In this document: piece by piece, positions 1 through 34,161 of the stretch
How the letters are laid out: the number at the start of each line of letters is the position of its first letter
Position numbering within the stretch: position 1 is the stretch's first letter
Source: Halichondria panicea
Taxonomy: Eukaryota > Porifera > Demospongiae > Suberitida > Halichondriidae
NCBI RefSeq assembly: GCF_963675165.1
Contig: NC_087387.1
Coordinates: forward strand, 2,965,501-3,029,500
Reading direction: 5' to 3'
Length of the DNA: 64,000 nt
The notes under the pieces: model-generated
What the model was told of the DNA's origin: nothing
Database searches by the model: none
The model's input: only the letters and a program-made list of their open reading frames with translations
Translations under genes and position numbers: made by a program

Positions 1-2111
1 CTGCTCGTGCTGGTTATCTGAGAATAGTGAAATTTTTAACTAAAACTATGAACTGCAATCCTCTTTGCTGTGACAAGAGTGGTGCTACTCCCCTACACTT
101 TGCAATGAAGAGTGGAAACTTGAAAATATGTGATTTTTTGGTCAAAGAGTTGAAGTGTGACCCAATTGTTCAAGATTTTAATGGGGAAACTCCACTGTGG
201 CATATTCTTAAAGCTTTTAAACTTGGTCACACTAAATTAAAGTACTTGATTCATGAGCTGAAATGTGATCCAGCAATTCCAAGAAAAGATGGGAGCAATG
301 TATTACATCTTGTGGCACAAAACGGTGATTTTGATACTCTGAAATTTCTTTCTTCAGTGTCTCAAATGAAAATGTTTATTTGTAATGATGCTTGTGTAAC
401 ACCTCTTCACATTGCTTGCGAATGTAGTCACTTAAATATTATAGAATTTCTATCTGAAAATCTACGTAGAAGAACAATTTCTGAAGTAGTTGATCAAAAC
501 AGGCTTTCACCACTACATTATGCTGTTAAAGGTGGGCATTTAGATGCGGTTAAAATGCTAGTGCTGGACAAATCACATAATCCCTATTGTTTCGATCTTA
601 CTGGAAATACTCCATTTCACTTAGCCACACAATTGGGCCATTTAGAAATTGTTCAGTGGTTTTTCTCAGGCTTGTCACTAGATCCTAATATTTGTACGAA
701 CAATATATTGGGCTTCACTCCACTGCATATTGCGTGTTTTAATGACAATGAAAAATTAGTAAGATATTTCATTGACCTCCCTACTTGTGATATGTTTATG
801 AGAAGCCGAGTGAAAGGTATGACAGGTCTGCATATTGCTGCTCAAGGAGGTCACGCTAAAATACTTAAATTGTTGACAGCTATACCTAACTGTGATCTAT
901 TATGCAAGTCCTTTAATGGTTTTACTGCTTTGCAACTCGCTGTCGATCTCGGGAATTTTGAATGTACAGTAATGTTAGCTTCAGCACTTAAACTGCAAGG
1001 GAAACAGCTTCTAAATGTTGACATGGTCAGTCAAACAGGACTTACTATTTTGCACTCAGCGTGCTATCAAAAAAATGTTAAAATTGTCAAATATCTGTTA
1101 AATGAGATTGATGAAGATTTTGTTCAAATAACTGACGAAATTAATAAGACCCCTCTATTCAGTGCTGTTCATGCTAATAATACTGAAGTATTTGACTACC
1201 TCATCAACAAGAATCCTCGAAGTGTGCATTCACAAGATATTCATGGAAACACAGTTCTGCACATAGCAGCATTTGAAGGCCATTCGAACATTGCTGAGAC
1301 AATTATGTTGGACCATGCTGTGGATCCACTCTTACAAAATTACGTTGGAACAACACCCCTTCATCTAGCATGTGCCAATGGAAACAAACCTCTAGTAACA
1401 TTTCTAAATTCCTTTGATGGAGTATTGGACATTCAGGGCATAAATCACCACACGCCACTTCATACTGCTGCTTTAGAGGGTCATCTGCACATTATCAAGA
1501 TATTAGTAGCACATAAACAATTTGACCATGGTCATTTCTTCCGTTTGGATGGTGAGGGTAGTATACCATGTTACTTGGCGGCTTATCAAGGTTTCATACA
1601 TAATGTAAATTTCATTGTTGAATATTGTTTGCAGAATCAGCCGTTTGCAATTGCTTTACATATGGAAAAGATTAAAATGTTTCTTGATATTGCAAAAATA
1701 AAAGGACGAATATGCACGCAAAAATTGCTTGCACACAGGGCTGCTGAAAAGCGATACGTAAGTGCCCTTGATTATTTTTTCAAGGAAGAGTCGTACAATC
1801 CGAATTGTAGAGACTCATTACGAAGAACCCCGCTTCACTATGCTGCAATGACTTATAAGAATGAAAGGTGCCTACAATTTCTTCTGGACGCTGGATCCAA
1901 CTTAATGGCAGAAGATGTATTTCACAATCAACCTATTCACTATGCTGTTGCCCTTGGACACATAGTTAATGCTAGACATCTTTTACTCAAATATGAAAAA
2001 CTGAGTCCTTCTAGAACCAGAGGAATTCTCGGTATGAGCTTACTGGATATCGCTAGAGCTGGAGGACACTCAAATGTCTATCAAGAATTGTTGTATAGTG
2101 ACAGTAATTAA
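1..2111 (+). CDS. Ankyrin-repeat protein, 3' part (5' end outside window)
   Basis: The frame is open from the first base of the window to the TAA at 2109-2111, about 702 codons. The first possible initiator in frame is a GTG at 27, but the codons before it already read as ankyrin sequence (ARAGYLRIV), so the true start lies upstream. The product is almost entirely ankyrin repeats of about 33-35 residues, with TPLH, LHIAA, LHYA and GH-linker motifs recurring to the end. Ankyrin repeats are protein-binding scaffolds. No kinase, death or membrane domain is visible here. The last repeats contain NCRDSLRRTPLHYAAM, nearly identical to the same position in the next gene (8315-8400), so the two are tandem paralogues. 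The partner and role are unknown. Whether this copy also carries Sema-like exons upstream cannot be seen. Confidence 0.9.
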   Translation, partial: ARAGYLRIVKFLTKTMNCNPLCCDKSGATPLHFAMKSGNLKICDFLVKELKCDPIVQDFNGETPLWHILKAFKLGHTKLKYLIHELKCDPAIPRKDGSNVLHLVAQNGDFDTLKFLSSVSQMKMFICNDACVTPLHIACECSHLNIIEFLSENLRRRTISEVVDQNRLSPLHYAVKGGHLDAVKMLVLDKSHNPYCFDLTGNTPFHLATQLGHLEIVQWFFSGLSLDPNICTNNILGFTPLHIACFNDNEKLVRYFIDLPTCDMFMRSRVKGMTGLHIAAQGGHAKILKLLTAIPNCDLLCKSFNGFTALQLAVDLGNFECTVMLASALKLQGKQLLNVDMVSQTGLTILHSACYQKNVKIVKYLLNEIDEDFVQITDEINKTPLFSAVHANNTEVFDYLINKNPRSVHSQDIHGNTVLHIAAFEGHSNIAETIMLDHAVDPLLQNYVGTTPLHLACANGNKPLVTFLNSFDGVLDIQGINHHTPLHTAALEGHLHIIKILVAHKQFDHGHFFRLDGEGSIPCYLAAYQGFIHNVNFIVEYCLQNQPFAIALHMEKIKMFLDIAKIKGRICTQKLLAHRAAEKRYVSALDYFFKEESYNPNCRDSLRRTPLHYAAMTYKNERCLQFLLDAGSNLMAEDVFHNQPIHYAVALGHIVNARHLLLKYEKLSPSRTRGILGMSLLDIARAGGHSNVYQELLYSDSN

Positions 2112-2628
2112 GTTTGTAGAGTCACGTAATCAAGTTGTTCTAATTAGAGCTATTATTATACATGCATCAAATGGTAGAGAGTTGTGCCATTTGTATAGTG
2201 TTCACCTTATTTTTTTGTACAATGTCATGTCATGATTGCACTTAGATTAACTATTTCCTGTGGTTAACTTTACCTTGTGCTGTTCATATACTATTGTATG
2301 AGTTCTGTTGATTAGTGTATAGTTGTTCTTTGTTCCTTTTGTGCCTAGCTATATGGACCCGCTCCAGGCGGCTCTCTTGTGTATGGGAGCCTCTGCTCCA
2401 CTGCCTTTTGTCTTCATCTTGTACTTTTATATTAGTCTAATGCCTCAACTCAAAATTAATGTCTGCATGAGAACTTTTTGCTTACCTGTGGTGTAGCTCA
2501 AAGGAGTTTGAAAGCCCTGATAAATTATGCTCCATGCAATGTCCATATTAATTTTGGTAAAGATCATTACATTAATTAAGTTTTGAATAACTCATGGCAA
2601 GAATGGCTGGATGTGAACATTATGGATC

Positions 2629-2771
2629 CAGAGGAGGTCCGACAGGCGCGGTGCAGCTCAAGTAATTAGCCTTTGATTACTCTCAGCAAAAACGTACGAC
2701 GTGGGCAGATAATTATTGCTCAATCAAAGGCTAATTGCTTGAGCTGCACCACGCCTGTTGTACCTCCTCTG
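2629..2771. mobile_element. Mutator-like MITE with 9-bp target duplication
   Basis: This 143-bp element has long terminal inverted repeats. The left end starts CAGAGGAGGTCCGACAGGCG and the right end is its imperfect reverse complement, ending ACCTCCTCTG. The pairing continues inward through GTGCAGCTCAAG / CTTGAGCTGCAC and AGCCTTTGATT / AATCAAAGGCT. It is flanked by a perfect 9-bp direct repeat, TTATGGATC (2620-2628 and 2772-2780). Nine-base target duplications are typical of the Mutator superfamily. It has no coding capacity. Related ends occur at 63352-63500 and, more diverged, at 11301-11446. Confidence 0.85.
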
Positions 2772-3247
2772 TTATGGATCAGTTCAAGTCAGCAACTGTG
2801 AATCATCAGCAACTGAGAATCATGATAATTAATTTAATTAATTATGCCTAGTGTCAGTTGTGTGCTGGTTTATGGCTACGTCTCACTTCTTTAATTTCTC
2901 TATAGAGAAATTATAGATAATTTATTTTATGTCACATTTTTTGGGAATAACCTTACATTTTTCAAGAATTTATCAGGGCCTAACTGTTACCTCATGGAAC
3001 CATAGATTAGATGGAACACATTAGCCTTGTTGTCTCTAAAAAAACACTATAGGCCGCCAACTTAATTCGTTCTAAATCCGCCTAGAATCAAGGCTAGGAA
3101 CACATGTGAAACTACGCAGTGGTATAATTCCAAAGAATCGAACACATGATTATGAAAACATTCTCATAAACAATTTGGATCTACTGTATAGCAGGTACTT
3201 TAGGGGGATTAATTAAAATTAAAATTACAAAAATTAGTCATTACATT

Positions 3248-3341
3248 AGGGTCGATTTTTAGCCGCGGCTATTTTCTGAAATGTGACTATTCCGGCCAAG
3301 CTGCAGTCCCAAGAGTGGTCAGATTAACGAGAGGTCTACTG
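3248..3341 (-). mobile_element. End fragment of a Tigger/pogo-like element
   Basis: The segment is the reverse complement of the first ~95 bp of the element at 31156. It shares the TTTTAGCCGCGGCTATTTTC core, the GGCC..GCTGCA.TCCCAAG block and the terminal CGAGAGGTCTACTG followed by TA. Only one end is recognised here, so it is a solo end or a strongly decayed copy. Confidence 0.7.
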
Positions 3342-3848
3342 TATATACAGGAAGCACAATGGATAGACCACACCCACTCATACATATATTATATAGATCT
3401 CAGGCTAATTATAACTGCAGAGATTACATACACACGTTCTACTTGTAGGAGCTTGTTCTAGATACAATTTTCCTTATACAAAGACTCCTTCCATGCCATT
3501 ACTAGTGGTGGAATCCATAAAGACTGAATGCACAAAGTAAATCAAAATCAGAAACAGTTCTTAAACAATACTAGGTGCATTAGAGGCAATTTGAGGCCAC
3601 AAGTCTGCACACTCTTTTACCACAGGACCCGTCACTGTGCTCCCTATGGGACAGGAAAAAAAACTCTTTTACAATAATGAGAGTAACATGCAATTAAGAA
3701 CAGGTGTTGTACGTAGGAATGCAGAGTCGATCTGATTGTGAATGATTGCCTGAATGCATGTATGCACAATAGCTAGTCAGAAACAACTGGTCGGATTAGC
3801 GCAAGTCAGCAGGCACATCCTTTCAGGGTATGTGATGCATGATGCATG

Positions 3849-4077: not shown

Positions 4078-5026
4078 GCATGGTTGTTAGGATTCTTGGT
4101 TAACCGTGGTCAATTGCAAAACAGCAAATCCGTTTATTGGTCACCTTTCTATTGGCCCGTTGAGCTGTGGTGTTGTGGTTGACTAAGCGGGTTAACGACC
4201 AGCTGTTTAATACTTGCAGGTGCTTAGCCTGTGCAGAGCCCGATTCTGCTGGTACAGCCGACTAACTGTTTGAACCAGTGGTAAGTGAATGTGAACAAAA
4301 TCAATCTGGACTTTTAGCTAGCATACATTACTATCCATTGCATTATCTCATTAAATAATTATCAGTCAGAGCCTCCCTGTTACTCTAGTGCCCAAGGGTG
4401 GTAGATGGTCAGAGATACACCACACCTTTAATCCCCTAACTGCGTTCGTGTAAACGGCTCTTATCCGAGTTCTAAATAATAGTTATAGGCTGAGTCCACA
4501 AGTATACGGTTTTTCCGTATACGGATTTCTGTCTTCTAATATACGGTTATACGGAATTAACACGGATATACATGTAGCTCTAAAAGACTAGAAAAACAAC
4601 CCGATTGAGTAATTGAGGGGACGATCGAACTAATCATTATATCACCATTCACGAGCTCTTCCAATACATAATTTATTTATCACAATAATTATTCATGAAC
4701 AATAATTATGTTTACATTAGCCAGAATTTCTTCCTGTGTGAATGACAGTGCCTGTGTTTTTCTCTCCTACAGTTACGAGGTGAGGCAGACAAGAGGCAAG
4801 TAAGTGGAGCAAGTGTGGGACTGCAGCACAACCTGCATGGGACTGCTGTAGTGACTCTTTACACTAAATACCAGTGAAACTCTCTCTAGTTCTCTGTGTA
4901 ATTATGTGTCTAATATGTGTTTAATTATTTGTCTGCAAGGTGAGTACTGTGTAGTGCATTGAGTACACGTAGTAACGATCAGTAAAAGTGATAGGGTTAG
5001 CTGATTGTAGTTATAATTATGAGCAG

Positions 5027-8000
5027 GAACATCGAGTGATATTCCATTCCATTACAATGAGATTCAAGACACATTCTTTGGTCCAAGTGGCTCCTCTGAA
5101 GGAGTTGTAGAATCAGAAGAGCAGCTCTTTGCTGTGTTCAACTTAGCAAGGTTTAGACTCAGTGAAATATTTACTGCTATGTTTAGTCTGGTTACTCATA
5201 AATAATTATTAATGCTGTCCTACTCTATTATGCAGGAATGGTCCCATAGGGTCAGCTGTCTGTGTGTTCACGTTTAATACCCAAGAGGACAACAACAACA
5301 TAGCCACTGTGTACAACGGAGACTATCTCAAACATGTTTCTCAACAATGGGTGACTGAAAGCAACTACCAGCCATTCACCGTGAGTATAGATCTACTTAT
5401 CTAACTATCACAGTCATGCATTTAAATGCAATTCTCACCAATCGGTCAAGCAAAATTACTTGAATGTCATCAATCCAAAAGAATATTGTGCCTCCTTTGG
5501 GCACCTACTGCCAAGCTGCTTGCACATGTCACTATGTACAGTAGTGTATGTACACCACTCTTATCAACACACTCTCTAATGCAACAGTGTGAGCCTGGGA
5601 GCCGAAGCTTAGAAGATTCCCGTGATATTCAGCTGATAAAAGAGACGGTCACTTCGTCTAACGGACCACGCCCACTCTTGGCCAGTGAGAAGTACCTGTT
5701 TGACAAGATTGTGGTATCACAAGTCACAGCTCTCGACAACAGGACTTATGACATCGTATTTGTTGCTGCTCACTCATCAGGTTAGTATACTCAGCCATGC
5801 ACACATGAATCTCCATGTACTCTACATGTACAATCATACAGCCTCATATAAAAATCACATCTACAGTACTGCCAATCAGATATGTTTGCTCATACAGATG
5901 AGCTAGTAGTCTTGAAGGCCTCTCTCTCACAAGGCCAAGAATATCATGTGATCCACACAGGATATCGTCAAACCCAGTTGCTTATTACAGCTGTTCAGAG
6001 AGGACACTTGCACATTTTAAAATACCTTGCTATTGAATGCCATTGGGAATGTGTGGATAATTTTTATAAAAAGATATCTCTTCTAACATTTGCTATTTCT
6101 TCTGGTCACTTAAATGTTGTGCGTTTTCTGATTTCAGAGACATGTAACTTATATCATCCTGAGGATAAAAAGATTCCTCCACTTCACCTTGCTTGTTCCA
6201 GTGGACACAAACACATCGTTGAATTTTTAATAGATGAACATGGTGCAGATCCTTCTCAGATTGACCAAAAGGGAAGGTCACCACTTCATTGTGCTATTTA
6301 TTCTGGTCAATGCGAAATTGTCAAATTTCTGGCAATGAACAGTCACTATGATTTTAACAGCAAAGACCAATCAGGCCGTACCCTATTGCATTACGCTCTC
6401 CTTGGTAACAATAAAGAAATTCCTGCTTTTCTCGTGAAAGAAATGAAATGTGGTCCAAATATTTTTGATAACGAGGGAATGACTCCAATTTTTTATGCAA
6501 TTTGTTCCTTTGTTCGTATTACTCGCCTAGACAAGGACAAGACTGAAAGTTTGAACTATTTCATTAAAAACTTTGAATGTGACCCAACAATACCTTCGAA
6601 GGATGGACAAACTGCTCTTCATGTTGCAGCATACGAGGGTGATTGCGTTGCAGTGGAGTTCTTAATGCCACTGTTTAAAGATTTCAATAAAAGTGTGTTC
6701 TCCAACCCTGGACGTACACCTTTTCACAATGCTTGCTTCAAAAGTCATTTAGGTGTGACAAAATTTCTATCACAAGAGAGTGAGATAGATATTAGTTTGT
6801 TTGTTGATAAGTATCAGCGATCTCCTCTACATTATGCTGCTATGAATGGTCATTTACAAGTCATAAAGTTTCTATTTTTGTCCAAGTCACATGACCCTCA
6901 CTGCCAGGATATAAGAGGCTATACACCATATCATATAGCAACAGAAAGAGGTCACCTACAAGCTGTGAAATTGTTTTTCTCTGAATTTAAATTAGATCCT
7001 AATGTGCCTGAGACAGCTGGTTTGACATCTCTCTTATTAGCATGCAAGCATGGCTATGAAGAAATGGTGAAATATCTCGTTGGCCTTCCTACCTGTAATA
7101 TGATGTGTACCGATAAAAATGGTGGAACATGTTTACATCAAGCTGCAATGAATGGCCAATATAGGATTGTGATAATTTTGTTGGACCATTGTGATATAAT
7201 TATAACTTATCAAACATTAGATGGTTCAACTGCTTTGCATAATGCGGTTACTTCGAATAGTATAGATACGGCCAAGTTGTTGGTTTCCACGTTTAATTCG
7301 AAGCAAATTGATTTCAATATTTCTAACAAACAAGGACATACACCTCTTGATGTTGCTTGTAGAAGAGGCAGTTTGGAGATGGCTGAATTCTTACTGACTG
7401 AATCTCTGGGTAGAAAGCAATTTACAGATTGGTTTGCATTTACGACACTGCTAAGTGCTGTTGTGGGTAACAAGGTTGATATCATGAACTCTCTACTCCT
7501 AATGTATCCAAAAGCATTTTTAACCAAAGTAGACAGAAAACGCTGTGATAGTGTACTTCATGAAGCTGCTTTCCAAGGGCATATTGATGCTACAAAACTT
7601 CTAATTGAAAAATTTAAAATGGATCCCAACACTCAGAATAGTCTTGGTCTAACACCTTTACACACAGCCTGTCTTTGTGGCTATATGACCATCGCTGAAT
7701 ATTTAATTGGTTATGATAATACGTGTTGTGATATTAATGGTAAATCTGCACTTCATTATGCTGCCTCTATGGGCCATCTTCATATTGTCAAACTTTTAGT
7801 CAAAAACATGAATTGGTTTTTATTGGACGCTAATGGTGCCACACCTTGTCATTTAGCTGCATTGAACGGTTTTACATATATTGTGAACTATTTTATAGAG
7901 GAAGGTCAAGATCCATTCATGAAAGATAGTAAAGGGCATGATATGTTTTGGTATATGAACGTATCAAAGATAGAAGGAACTGTTTGCACAAAAGAATTGG

Positions 8001-8164
8001 CCCTGCATCACGCTACAGAAAATGAGTTGATTGGTGCTGTCAAATATCTCATTGAAGAAGAGTTGCATCTAGCCTCGAGACCAGCCGTTCCTTATCTGAA
8101 AGAACGCCTGGTCAAGTTCCAATGTAGCACTCGTCCAGCTGAGTCAGCGTTTTATAGCTACTAA
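5027..8164 (+). CDS. Sema-like propeller fragment fused to ankyrin repeats
   Basis: Four phase-compatible exons are seen: 5027-5150, 5236-5380, 5588-5780 and 5898 onward. The first three encode about 154 residues resembling the C-terminal half of a Sema beta-propeller: QLFAVFNLARNGPIGSAVCV, a W..E...P stretch leading into CEPGS, and FDKIVVSQVTALDNRTYDIV. The fourth exon finishes that blade (DELVVLKASLSQGQEYHVIH) and within ~10 residues runs into about 20 ankyrin repeats, with no transmembrane helix between them. Sema domains are extracellular ligand-binding propellers of semaphorins, plexins and Met, whereas ankyrin repeats are normally cytosolic, so the fusion is unusual. The amino end is not found. 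The frame ends at a TAA (8162-8164) inside a MITE inserted at 8070; about 30 C-terminal residues come from the transposon. Ankyrin coding resumes at 8306. Confidence 0.75.
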
Positions 8165-8305
8165 TGATATTCATGGGTAATACACCTTGGGCGGACCTTG
8201 TGCGGGCAATTACCGGTCCATGAAATTCCTGGACTGCTGGACAAGTGCTACATTGGAACTTGACCAGGCGTTCTTTCAGATAACGAACGGTTGGTCTCGA
8301 GGCTA
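8070..8305. mobile_element. MITE inserted in an ankyrin exon, 9-bp target duplication
   Basis: This 236-bp element has terminal inverted repeats of about 70 bp with roughly three mismatches, starting TAGCCTCGAG and ending CTCGAGGCTA. It is bounded by a perfect 9-bp direct repeat AGTTGCATC (8061-8069 and 8306-8314), the signature of Mutator-type insertion. Removing the element plus one repeat restores the ankyrin frame exactly (EEELH, then QPNCRDS). The low divergence of the two arms suggests a young insertion. It has no coding capacity of its own. Confidence 0.92.
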
Positions 8306-8658
8306 AGTTGCATCAGCCTAATTGTCGAGATTCACTGCAGAGAACCCCTCTTCACTATGCTGCAATGACTCCCAATGGTCTTGCATTGCCTCACTTAGTT
8401 GATGCTGGCTCCGATATATGCGCTGAAGATGTATTTCAAAACCTTCCTATTCACTATGCTATTGCTCTTGGTCGCCACACCTCAGTAAAGTTTTTAATCG
8501 ATAAAGGAAGTTCTTTTACAAAAAGGGGAGTTCTAGGCATGACCCCACTCGAAATAGCTACTATGATGAACAGTTCAAAGTCTAGGGAACGTTCAGAAAT
8601 TTATCAGACACTATTGGCTAGTTTATTAAAACTCGATATCTATAATAAAATTAAATGA
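8306..8658 (+). pseudogene. Severed 3' end of the Sema-ankyrin gene
   Basis: This is the continuation of the upstream ankyrin exon beyond the inserted MITE. It reads LHQPNCRDSLQRTPLHYAAM, then two or three more ankyrin repeats, to the TGA at 8656-8658. It matches the C-terminal part of the first ankyrin gene (1800-2100). It has no promoter or initiator of its own other than an internal ATG, so it is probably translated only if the MITE is spliced out or absent on the other haplotype. Confidence 0.8.
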
Positions 8659-33200: not shown

Positions 33201-34161
33201 GAGTCTCGTGGCTACTAGACTTTGTCAATGACGTGCGTTCACTGTTCAGTCTTTAATACTGGCGGTTATATATATGTACCACTAATCCACCATTACTGCT
33301 CACTGCTCACTGCCAGGCACCAGACCTCTGCTGATCTTCACCAAATTTTCCCGTTTATACAGGTAAGTAAAACAAACTACTTAATTCCGAGCGAAGCGAG
33401 GCTATAATCGTGCTAGTTTCAATTGAGATCAACGGTGGTAGTGGTGGTGGTGGAGGTTGGTCGATTAAAACTCCAGTTGCCCTCCAGTCAAGCGGTTTCA
33501 CTCTAAACTCAGCACAGGTACTCTACATCAACGCTATACTCTCTGAACGACTTCTCATCCCACAGTGAAGCTCTGCACGGCCGTTAGTGAACTTACTTCA
33601 ACTATGGTTCTTACCGTGACGATCTGCCACAAAAACGATCATTACACAAACATCTCCATCTAGATCTAGCTACTTCTCTACCCTAGCGCTTCTCACAATA
33701 ATCATGTAGTGTACATCAACACAAGACTCTCTGGCCCACTTTGGATCTCACAAAGAGGTTCTACACTGTCTTTATTGAATACACAAACCTAGCTTTCTTA
33801 CGTGCCGATCATTACATTCATTACAACATCTTTACATTAATTTTAAATGACGTCATAAGCCAAGCAAAATTTATGACTGAGCGAGGATTGCACCATGTGT
33901 ACCCCTAGTACTTAATATACCTGCGCTCGTTCGATTGATAGGAAACTCCATAATGTTATCTCTTCTCTCACTGGACATCAGAGGAACTTTGGAAACCTTG
34001 TGAGACTTTTCTAAAACCAGCTTCTTCTTCAGGGTACGGTAAGGATCTCTTGTCAACCCACCAAATTTCTGCTTAGCTCCTCTAACCTGCACCACAGACA
34101 CACAGGGAGCAAGACATCGAAGAGTATGGGACGAGAGAATAGTTTTGACAGGTAGGTGCAT
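30286..34161 (-). CDS. MRPL45: Mitochondrial ribosomal protein L45 (288 aa)
   Basis: Seven exons: 34161-33921, 32973-32909, 32671-32619, 32463-32356, 32165-32117, 32052-31906 and 30489-30286. They total 867 nt with consistent phases. The N-terminus (MHLPVKTILSSHTLRCLAP) is basic and Ser/Leu-rich, as expected for a mitochondrial presequence. The body matches mL45: IELARKAQEMFAETNKAIQE, then FQWDLVEEVERPRIVCARAA, VVLRMHTKQ and a C-terminal block VIDYVVLERPLE followed by PWRIAGKLPPQLPW. mL45 has a Tim44-like fold and sits near the peptide exit of the mitochondrial large subunit, at the inner membrane. Introns contain three inserted elements (30733, 31156 with a nested one, and 32207). Confidence 0.93.
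30733..30928. mobile_element. TA-flanked MITE, CCGTATTACTAGAATATTTTGC ends
   Basis: This 196-bp element lies in the last MRPL45 intron. The left end CCGTATTACTAGAATATTTT pairs with the right end AAAATATTCTAGTAATACAG. TA lies on both sides. Two inner GCAAAGG motifs and TTCGCA blocks recur. A half copy of this end occurs at about 50681-50702. Confidence 0.85.
31156..31893. mobile_element. Non-autonomous Tigger/pogo-like element (738 bp)
   Basis: Ends CAGTAGACTCTCGTTAATTT and, in reverse, CAGTAGACCCTCGCTATTCT, with TA on both sides (31154-31155, 31894-31895). CAGTAGACYCTCG ends are typical of the pogo/Tigger branch of Tc1/mariner. There is no transposase frame. A second inverted-repeat element (31467-31810) is nested inside. 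The left end is duplicated internally (GGAATAGCGAGTGGCCGCATTTCAG near 31407). It lies in the last MRPL45 intron; a related end occurs at 3248-3341. Confidence 0.85.
31467..31810. mobile_element. Nested inverted-repeat element, AATCTGGTTAATAAGCGCA ends
   Basis: The left arm TATAATCTGGTTAATAAGCG pairs with the right arm CGCTTACTAACCAGATTATA. Inner copies of the GGCGCAT motif occur. It sits wholly inside the pogo-like element, so it arrived later or forms its internal palindrome. Confidence 0.7.
32207..32347. mobile_element. TA-flanked MITE, CCGTACTT ends (141 bp)
   Basis: The left end CCGTACTTCTACTTCTTCGA (then AATAAG) pairs imperfectly with the right end read in reverse, CCGTACTTTTTCCAAATAAG. 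TA lies on both sides (32205-32206, 32348-32349). Its right end abuts the MRPL45 exon starting at 32356, within about 8 bp of the splice donor. Confidence 0.75.

Follow-up and report, generated by a model that had tools for sequence, protein, structure and literature searches.

A probable MITE of a helicase-bearing, AcademH-like transposon interrupts an ankyrin repeat frame in the sponge Halichondria panicea

An ankyrin repeat coding frame on contig NC_087387.1 of Halichondria panicea is interrupted by a 236-bp inverted-repeat element. From its sequence, we judge it with a probability of nearly 0.9 to be a non-autonomous MITE that arose by internal deletion from a DNA transposon with a helicase gene, of a type that fits AcademH. 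Within the 64,000-nucleotide stretch of DNA that was analysed (the window), the element occupies positions 8070-8305 and consists of two 70-nt arms, 96% complementary to each other, with 96 nt between them. The left terminal inverted repeat (8070-8139, plus strand) starts with TAGCCTCGAGACC and the right one (8236-8305, plus strand) ends with CTCGAGGCTA; in the interior (8140-8235, plus strand), the right part is right-end sequence of a 5.6-kb coding element. On the outside, a 9-bp stretch of host coding sequence, AGTTGCATC (8061-8069), is repeated identically at 8306-8314 as a target site duplication (TSD). The original prediction, which described a 236-bp element with arms of approximately 70 bp and approximately 96% identity and a perfect flanking repeat, had placed these features correctly to the base. 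When folded as RNA, the element reaches -162.4 kcal/mol (z -19), and none of 200 shuffled sequences was as stable. Elsewhere in the window, the matches to TAGCCTCG at 33397, 45088, and 50077 do not represent further copies of the element.

The upstream part of the host frame (5852-8164, plus strand; 770 aa from stop to stop) runs on into the element, which encodes its last 31 residues and ends it at a premature TAA (8162-8164, plus strand). Pfam assigns Ank_2 to the host portion (2.2e-121 for 5852-8068) as well as to the downstream part of the frame (1.4e-9 for 8314-8658, plus strand), which comprises 114 aa and the native TGA (8656-8658). Joining the flanks with a single copy of AGTTGCATC yields 853 codons that read through uninterrupted to the native TGA; the insertion point falls after codon 739. 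A paralogous ankyrin frame that lacks the element is located at 9-2099 (plus strand; 38% identity in tblastn), and its alignment to the joined frame, covering 692 query residues in 718 columns, crosses the insertion point. Both the predicted restoration of frame and paralogue homology upon removal of the element and the predicted premature stop are thereby borne out, and the ankyrin frame was apparently intact until the insertion.

That the gene had already died, with the insertion being neutral debris, appears unlikely. In favour of this explanation, the host gene may not be expressed, and the inverted duplicate of the neighbouring paralogue (L091) does contain a stop. Against it stand the 853 codons without a stop outside the element: nonsense changes make up 4.6% of single substitutions, and zero stops therefore bound the divergence since a loss of constraint to approximately 2.6% (95%). 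The Ka/Ks ratio to the paralogue of about 0.23 also argues against a dead gene, although with Ks saturated it says only that the proteins have long been kept as proteins. The duplicate belongs to an inverted segmental duplication, in which window positions 300-3457 and 4300-5955 correspond to C11:2707541-2715386 (minus strand), approximately 250-260 kb away and 99.8-99.9% identical in the stretches compared. We considered it as a possible empty site and rejected it, since it holds the neighbouring paralogue and its near-identity with the host gene stops at 5955, inside the ankyrin gene.

If the gene with its insertion were transcribed, the product would lack the last 114 residues, corresponding to approximately three ankyrin repeats, and would carry 31 foreign residues instead. 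The message may escape exon-junction-dependent decay because the new and the native stop share one open stretch and thus probably one exon. In such a message, the arms of the element would pair into a highly stable hairpin, from which small RNAs might be processed. Among the matches listed in the genome search, the upstream 2.27 kb of the host gene matches itself and four partial relatives, and the downstream 486 bp matches itself and two relatives with 74% identity. There is no full second copy of the gene among them, so that no empty site can be read from the assembly; an element-free allele would read GAGTTGCATCAGCC.

Relatives of the element are numerous in the window's own genome (131 Mb in 39 contigs). 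Scoring 40 of 261 first-look candidates gave 93 matching pieces, the best 40 rows of which represent 40 places, including the window's own; at each, the similarity covers the whole element or the greater part of it. In addition, a 20-base end pattern allowing at most two mismatches has 378 matches in the genome, compared to none for the reversed control. The original prediction had called for a genome search for further copies and had treated their absence as evidence against a young transposon; with 40 places scored and 378 ends, other copies clearly exist. After one locus (L068), in which the right end was not recognised, had been dropped before the alignment and the site counts, 39 elements remained, including the window's, with a mean pairwise difference of 4.4%.

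Target sites were compared at 42 positions, comprising these 39 elements, one copy split by a LINE-like insertion (L078), and two copies of the 5-kb class. An exact 9-bp TSD is present at 33 of the 42 sites and a duplication matching at 8 of 9 bases at three, while six have neither; CA-rich simple repeats surround three of these six. The 33 exact duplications vary in sequence, and in no case does the match continue to a tenth base. At nine further loci, the TSD is exact in four, matches at 8 of 9 bp in two, and is absent in three. Two of the loci (L070 and L071) represent a single insertion that has been duplicated. The copies L057, L061, and L064 share a chromosome (C14:0.54-0.70 Mb) and are all surrounded by CA-rich simple repeats that resemble one another, so that duplication of a single insertion may account for all three. 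The split copy (L078, C1:8566025-8569341) is separated by what appears by eye to be a truncated LINE-like insertion, with an exact 9-bp TSD on the outside.

The element thus has the hallmarks of a MITE: it is short, bears terminal inverted repeats and a TSD, has many related copies at unrelated sites, and has its ends in common with a larger coding element. MITEs in general are likewise short, encode no protein, and occur in many copies with inverted-repeat ends, TSDs, and ends common to a larger element. The window element differs from them in that its arms take up 140 of the 236 bases, which makes it almost a fold-back element, and in that its likely superfamily lies outside those usual for MITEs, namely Tc1, hAT, PIF, and Mutator.

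Several smaller or related elements were seen alongside this family. Related families at L055, L088, and L103 have ends such as TAGCCTCGATTCC or TGGCCTCGATCC, are in some cases nested with the element's own family, and carry 9-bp TSDs that are exact in L055 and L088 and match at 8 of 9 bases in L103. Very short palindromes of 36-57 bp, which consist of little else than two abutting ends, occur at L102 (C5:1404850-1405210), L100 (C3:4023900-4024270), L084 (222-345), and L103. A 53-bp element among them has an exact 9-bp TSD and one of 57 bp a duplication with 8 of 9 bases, while another of 57 bp (L101) has none; L084 contains a 57-bp and a 36-bp element with GCAACTTCC common to both. These palindromes are either very small mobile elements or remnants of larger ones deleted in place. 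Furthermore, a 50-bp palindromic element of the family resides in a repeat unit of approximately 3 kb or longer (G000 C1:1.28-2.38 Mb), which we compared at 18 loci (L010, L015, L017-L019, L022-L033, and L035); these are spread over approximately 1.1 Mb, are 96.5-99% identical, and are partial in some cases.

Candidates for the coding partner were picked as facing end pairs at a larger distance among 100 listed of the 378 ends. One of them (L098, C1:10683027-10688601) spans 5,575 bp between exact ends and is flanked on both sides by the TSD ACTCTACTG. On one strand, it encodes DEAD (5e-14) and Helicase_C (1.4e-11) domains, and the nearest solved structures of this helicase are WRN, BLM, and RecQ (best E 1.1e-36). 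On the other strand, DUF6589 is matched in two separate pieces (9.2e-12 and 2.7e-31); the coding pieces were searched apart and unmended, and for the longer DUF6589 piece there was no relative of solved structure at E up to 0.1. A second copy of the 5-kb class (C1:1329568-1334916) has the TSD TCTAGTGCT on both sides. Using a 1,501-bp stretch of L098, we found 15 matches in the genome, of which six are approximately 100% identical (two on C10, two on C1, and one each on C8 and C17), one is 98% identical, and eight are partial or diverged. The ends were checked in two of the six near-identical copies, and both have an exact 9-bp TSD. DUF6589 itself has 92 matches in this genome and none in 14 control genomes. 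The six DUF6589 matches at the near-identical copies have similar scores; every one of them passes through a single TAG, possibly the sign of an intron or of a break.

The two ends of the window element can be recognised in this partner: positions 8070-8149 align with its left end (81 bp, 96%) and positions 8195-8305 with its right end (113 bp, 91%). The element therefore appears to have the make-up of an internal-deletion derivative of a partner-type element. Since the right 113 bp are only 91% identical to the present 5.6-kb copy, the copies now in the genome need not be the source of the MITE. Proteins of such a helicase element would have acted in trans on the ends of the MITE; a copy would have entered the ankyrin frame through a staggered cut behind codon 739, with the filling of the gaps producing the AGTTGCATC duplication.

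The MITE could instead derive from the Mutator (MULE) superfamily, whose transposons also make 9-bp TSDs, and 31 matches to MULE domains are present in the genome. Even so, we regard this as very improbable. None of the 11 MULE loci read among these 31 matches (L079-L088 with flanks of approximately 1.5 kb and L097 with approximately 3 kb) is bracketed by the element's ends, with flanks that are possibly too short to reach the ends of a long element; where TAGCCTC ends do occur nearby, at five loci, they are solitary or part of small elements of their own. Moreover, the element that does carry these very ends encodes the helicase and the DUF6589 pieces instead. KolobokH was rejected: its target is TTAA, and the TSDs found here are 9 bp long and varied in sequence. 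Matches to the IS1595 (Merlin-type) transposase number 24 in the genome.

The features of the partner instead favour AcademH, a group reportedly defined by Kojima in 2020. In the passages concerned, one source gives TSDs of 9 or 10 bp for AcademH and of 3 or 4 bp for AcademX and draws a relation to helicase and nuclease (PMC10045372), and another describes AcademH elements as low-copy in fungi (PMC10799480). On this description, AcademH is the helicase-bearing Academ lineage; the partner likewise encodes a RecQ-like DEAD/Helicase_C helicase, and the 9-bp TSD of the window's family agrees with the 9 or 10 bp given there (PMC10045372). The duplication is exact and 9 bp long at both 5-kb-class copies looked at (two of the six). 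The proposed assignment to AcademH is thus made on the helicase and the TSD length, and the window element differs from coding AcademH elements in being a non-coding derivative. The literature search found nothing that links DUF6589 with a transposase or equates it with Academ. Among the matches listed for sponge MITEs and genomes, AcademH, DUF6589, Academ in sponges, and introners, the element family is undescribed.

Alternatively, the element could act as an introner-like intron and be spliced out, leaving a normally working gene. Introners are reportedly likewise transposon copies in genes (PMC9860276). This explanation, which we hold to be very improbable, gains from the exact restoration of the frame upon removal; nevertheless, in none of the 10 registers that would excise precisely 245 nt do GT and AG stand at the borders, and the element's own ends, TAG...CTA, bring no splice sites. 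Exact GT-AG removal is possible at one (plus strand) and three (minus strand) of the 33 sites with exact TSDs, but chance alone would give 5.5% per strand, close to what is seen. Considering donors at 7961-8140 and acceptors up to 8441, we found 32 in-frame, stop-free GT-AG pairs, each of which also removes host residues or keeps residues of the element. The donor scores are at most -2.21 in the twelve pairs listed. For the best in-frame pair, the acceptor scores 1.21 (90th percentile of random AGs in the window, 0.97) and the donor -2.70 (random GTs: median -4.32, 90th percentile 0.45), in a single matrix of generic frequencies. The acceptor of this pair thus seems fair and its donor poor. 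The suggestion in the original prediction that the element may be removed as a cryptic intron consequently fares badly: an exact register is lacking, the in-frame alternatives have weak donors, and such splicing is unlikely.

The rest of the family also appears unlike introners in its genomic context. A verified coding frame extends across none of the 38 other sites, a weak test given that exons may be short. Eight of the 38 lie in a frame of at least 100 aa, as do 36% of positions drawn at random from the window and 30% of those in the neighbourhood of the sites, and three lie in a frame of at least 150 aa, all three in simple repeats. A Pfam search with seven spanning frames at the other sites returned nothing above the cut-off and one sub-threshold match (0.076). 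Among the 38 other sites, there is no sign of a family that specialises in exons. In both respects, the ends without splice signals and the lack of verified coding context at these 38 sites, the element differs from introners.

Returning to the MITE in the ankyrin frame, its age is best approached through its nearest relative (L039, C5:1787854), which is inserted at a different site with the TSD CTATGCCTG and differs from the window element at one of 236 bases (element position 152). A single difference limits the divergence to approximately 2.4% or less (Poisson 95%). Together with the perfect TSD and the absence of any other stop in the 853 codons, this close sibling suggests that the insertion is recent. 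The original prediction had reached the same conclusion from the similarity of the arms, and this part of the argument fails: the arms of both elements mismatch at the same three places (arm positions 15, 22, and 63), and because a copy at another site has them too, these mismatches must be older than the insertion and give no measure of its age. Compared to the family majority, the window element differs in 13 alignment columns. Because 12 of these departures recur in at least one other copy, the element's subfamily is, by this measure, not brand new.

Insertions of transposons into coding sequence are ordinary, common biology, but the likely transposon family behind this one is rarely described. 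It is quite possible, if slightly short of even odds, that an AcademH system is active in this genome now or was until very recently, with six coding copies that are approximately 100% identical in the 1,501 bp compared and MITE siblings that differ at one base; one of these siblings would just have removed the end of an ankyrin gene and may still be segregating. If so, the activity of a transposon with its own RecQ-like helicase, and with DUF6589 as the transposase, could be followed in an animal. What the partner adds goes beyond the insertion itself, since near-identical coding copies, many MITEs, and varied 9-bp TSDs would provide material on the role of the helicase, and the ankyrin insertion would serve as a clean marker for polymorphism.
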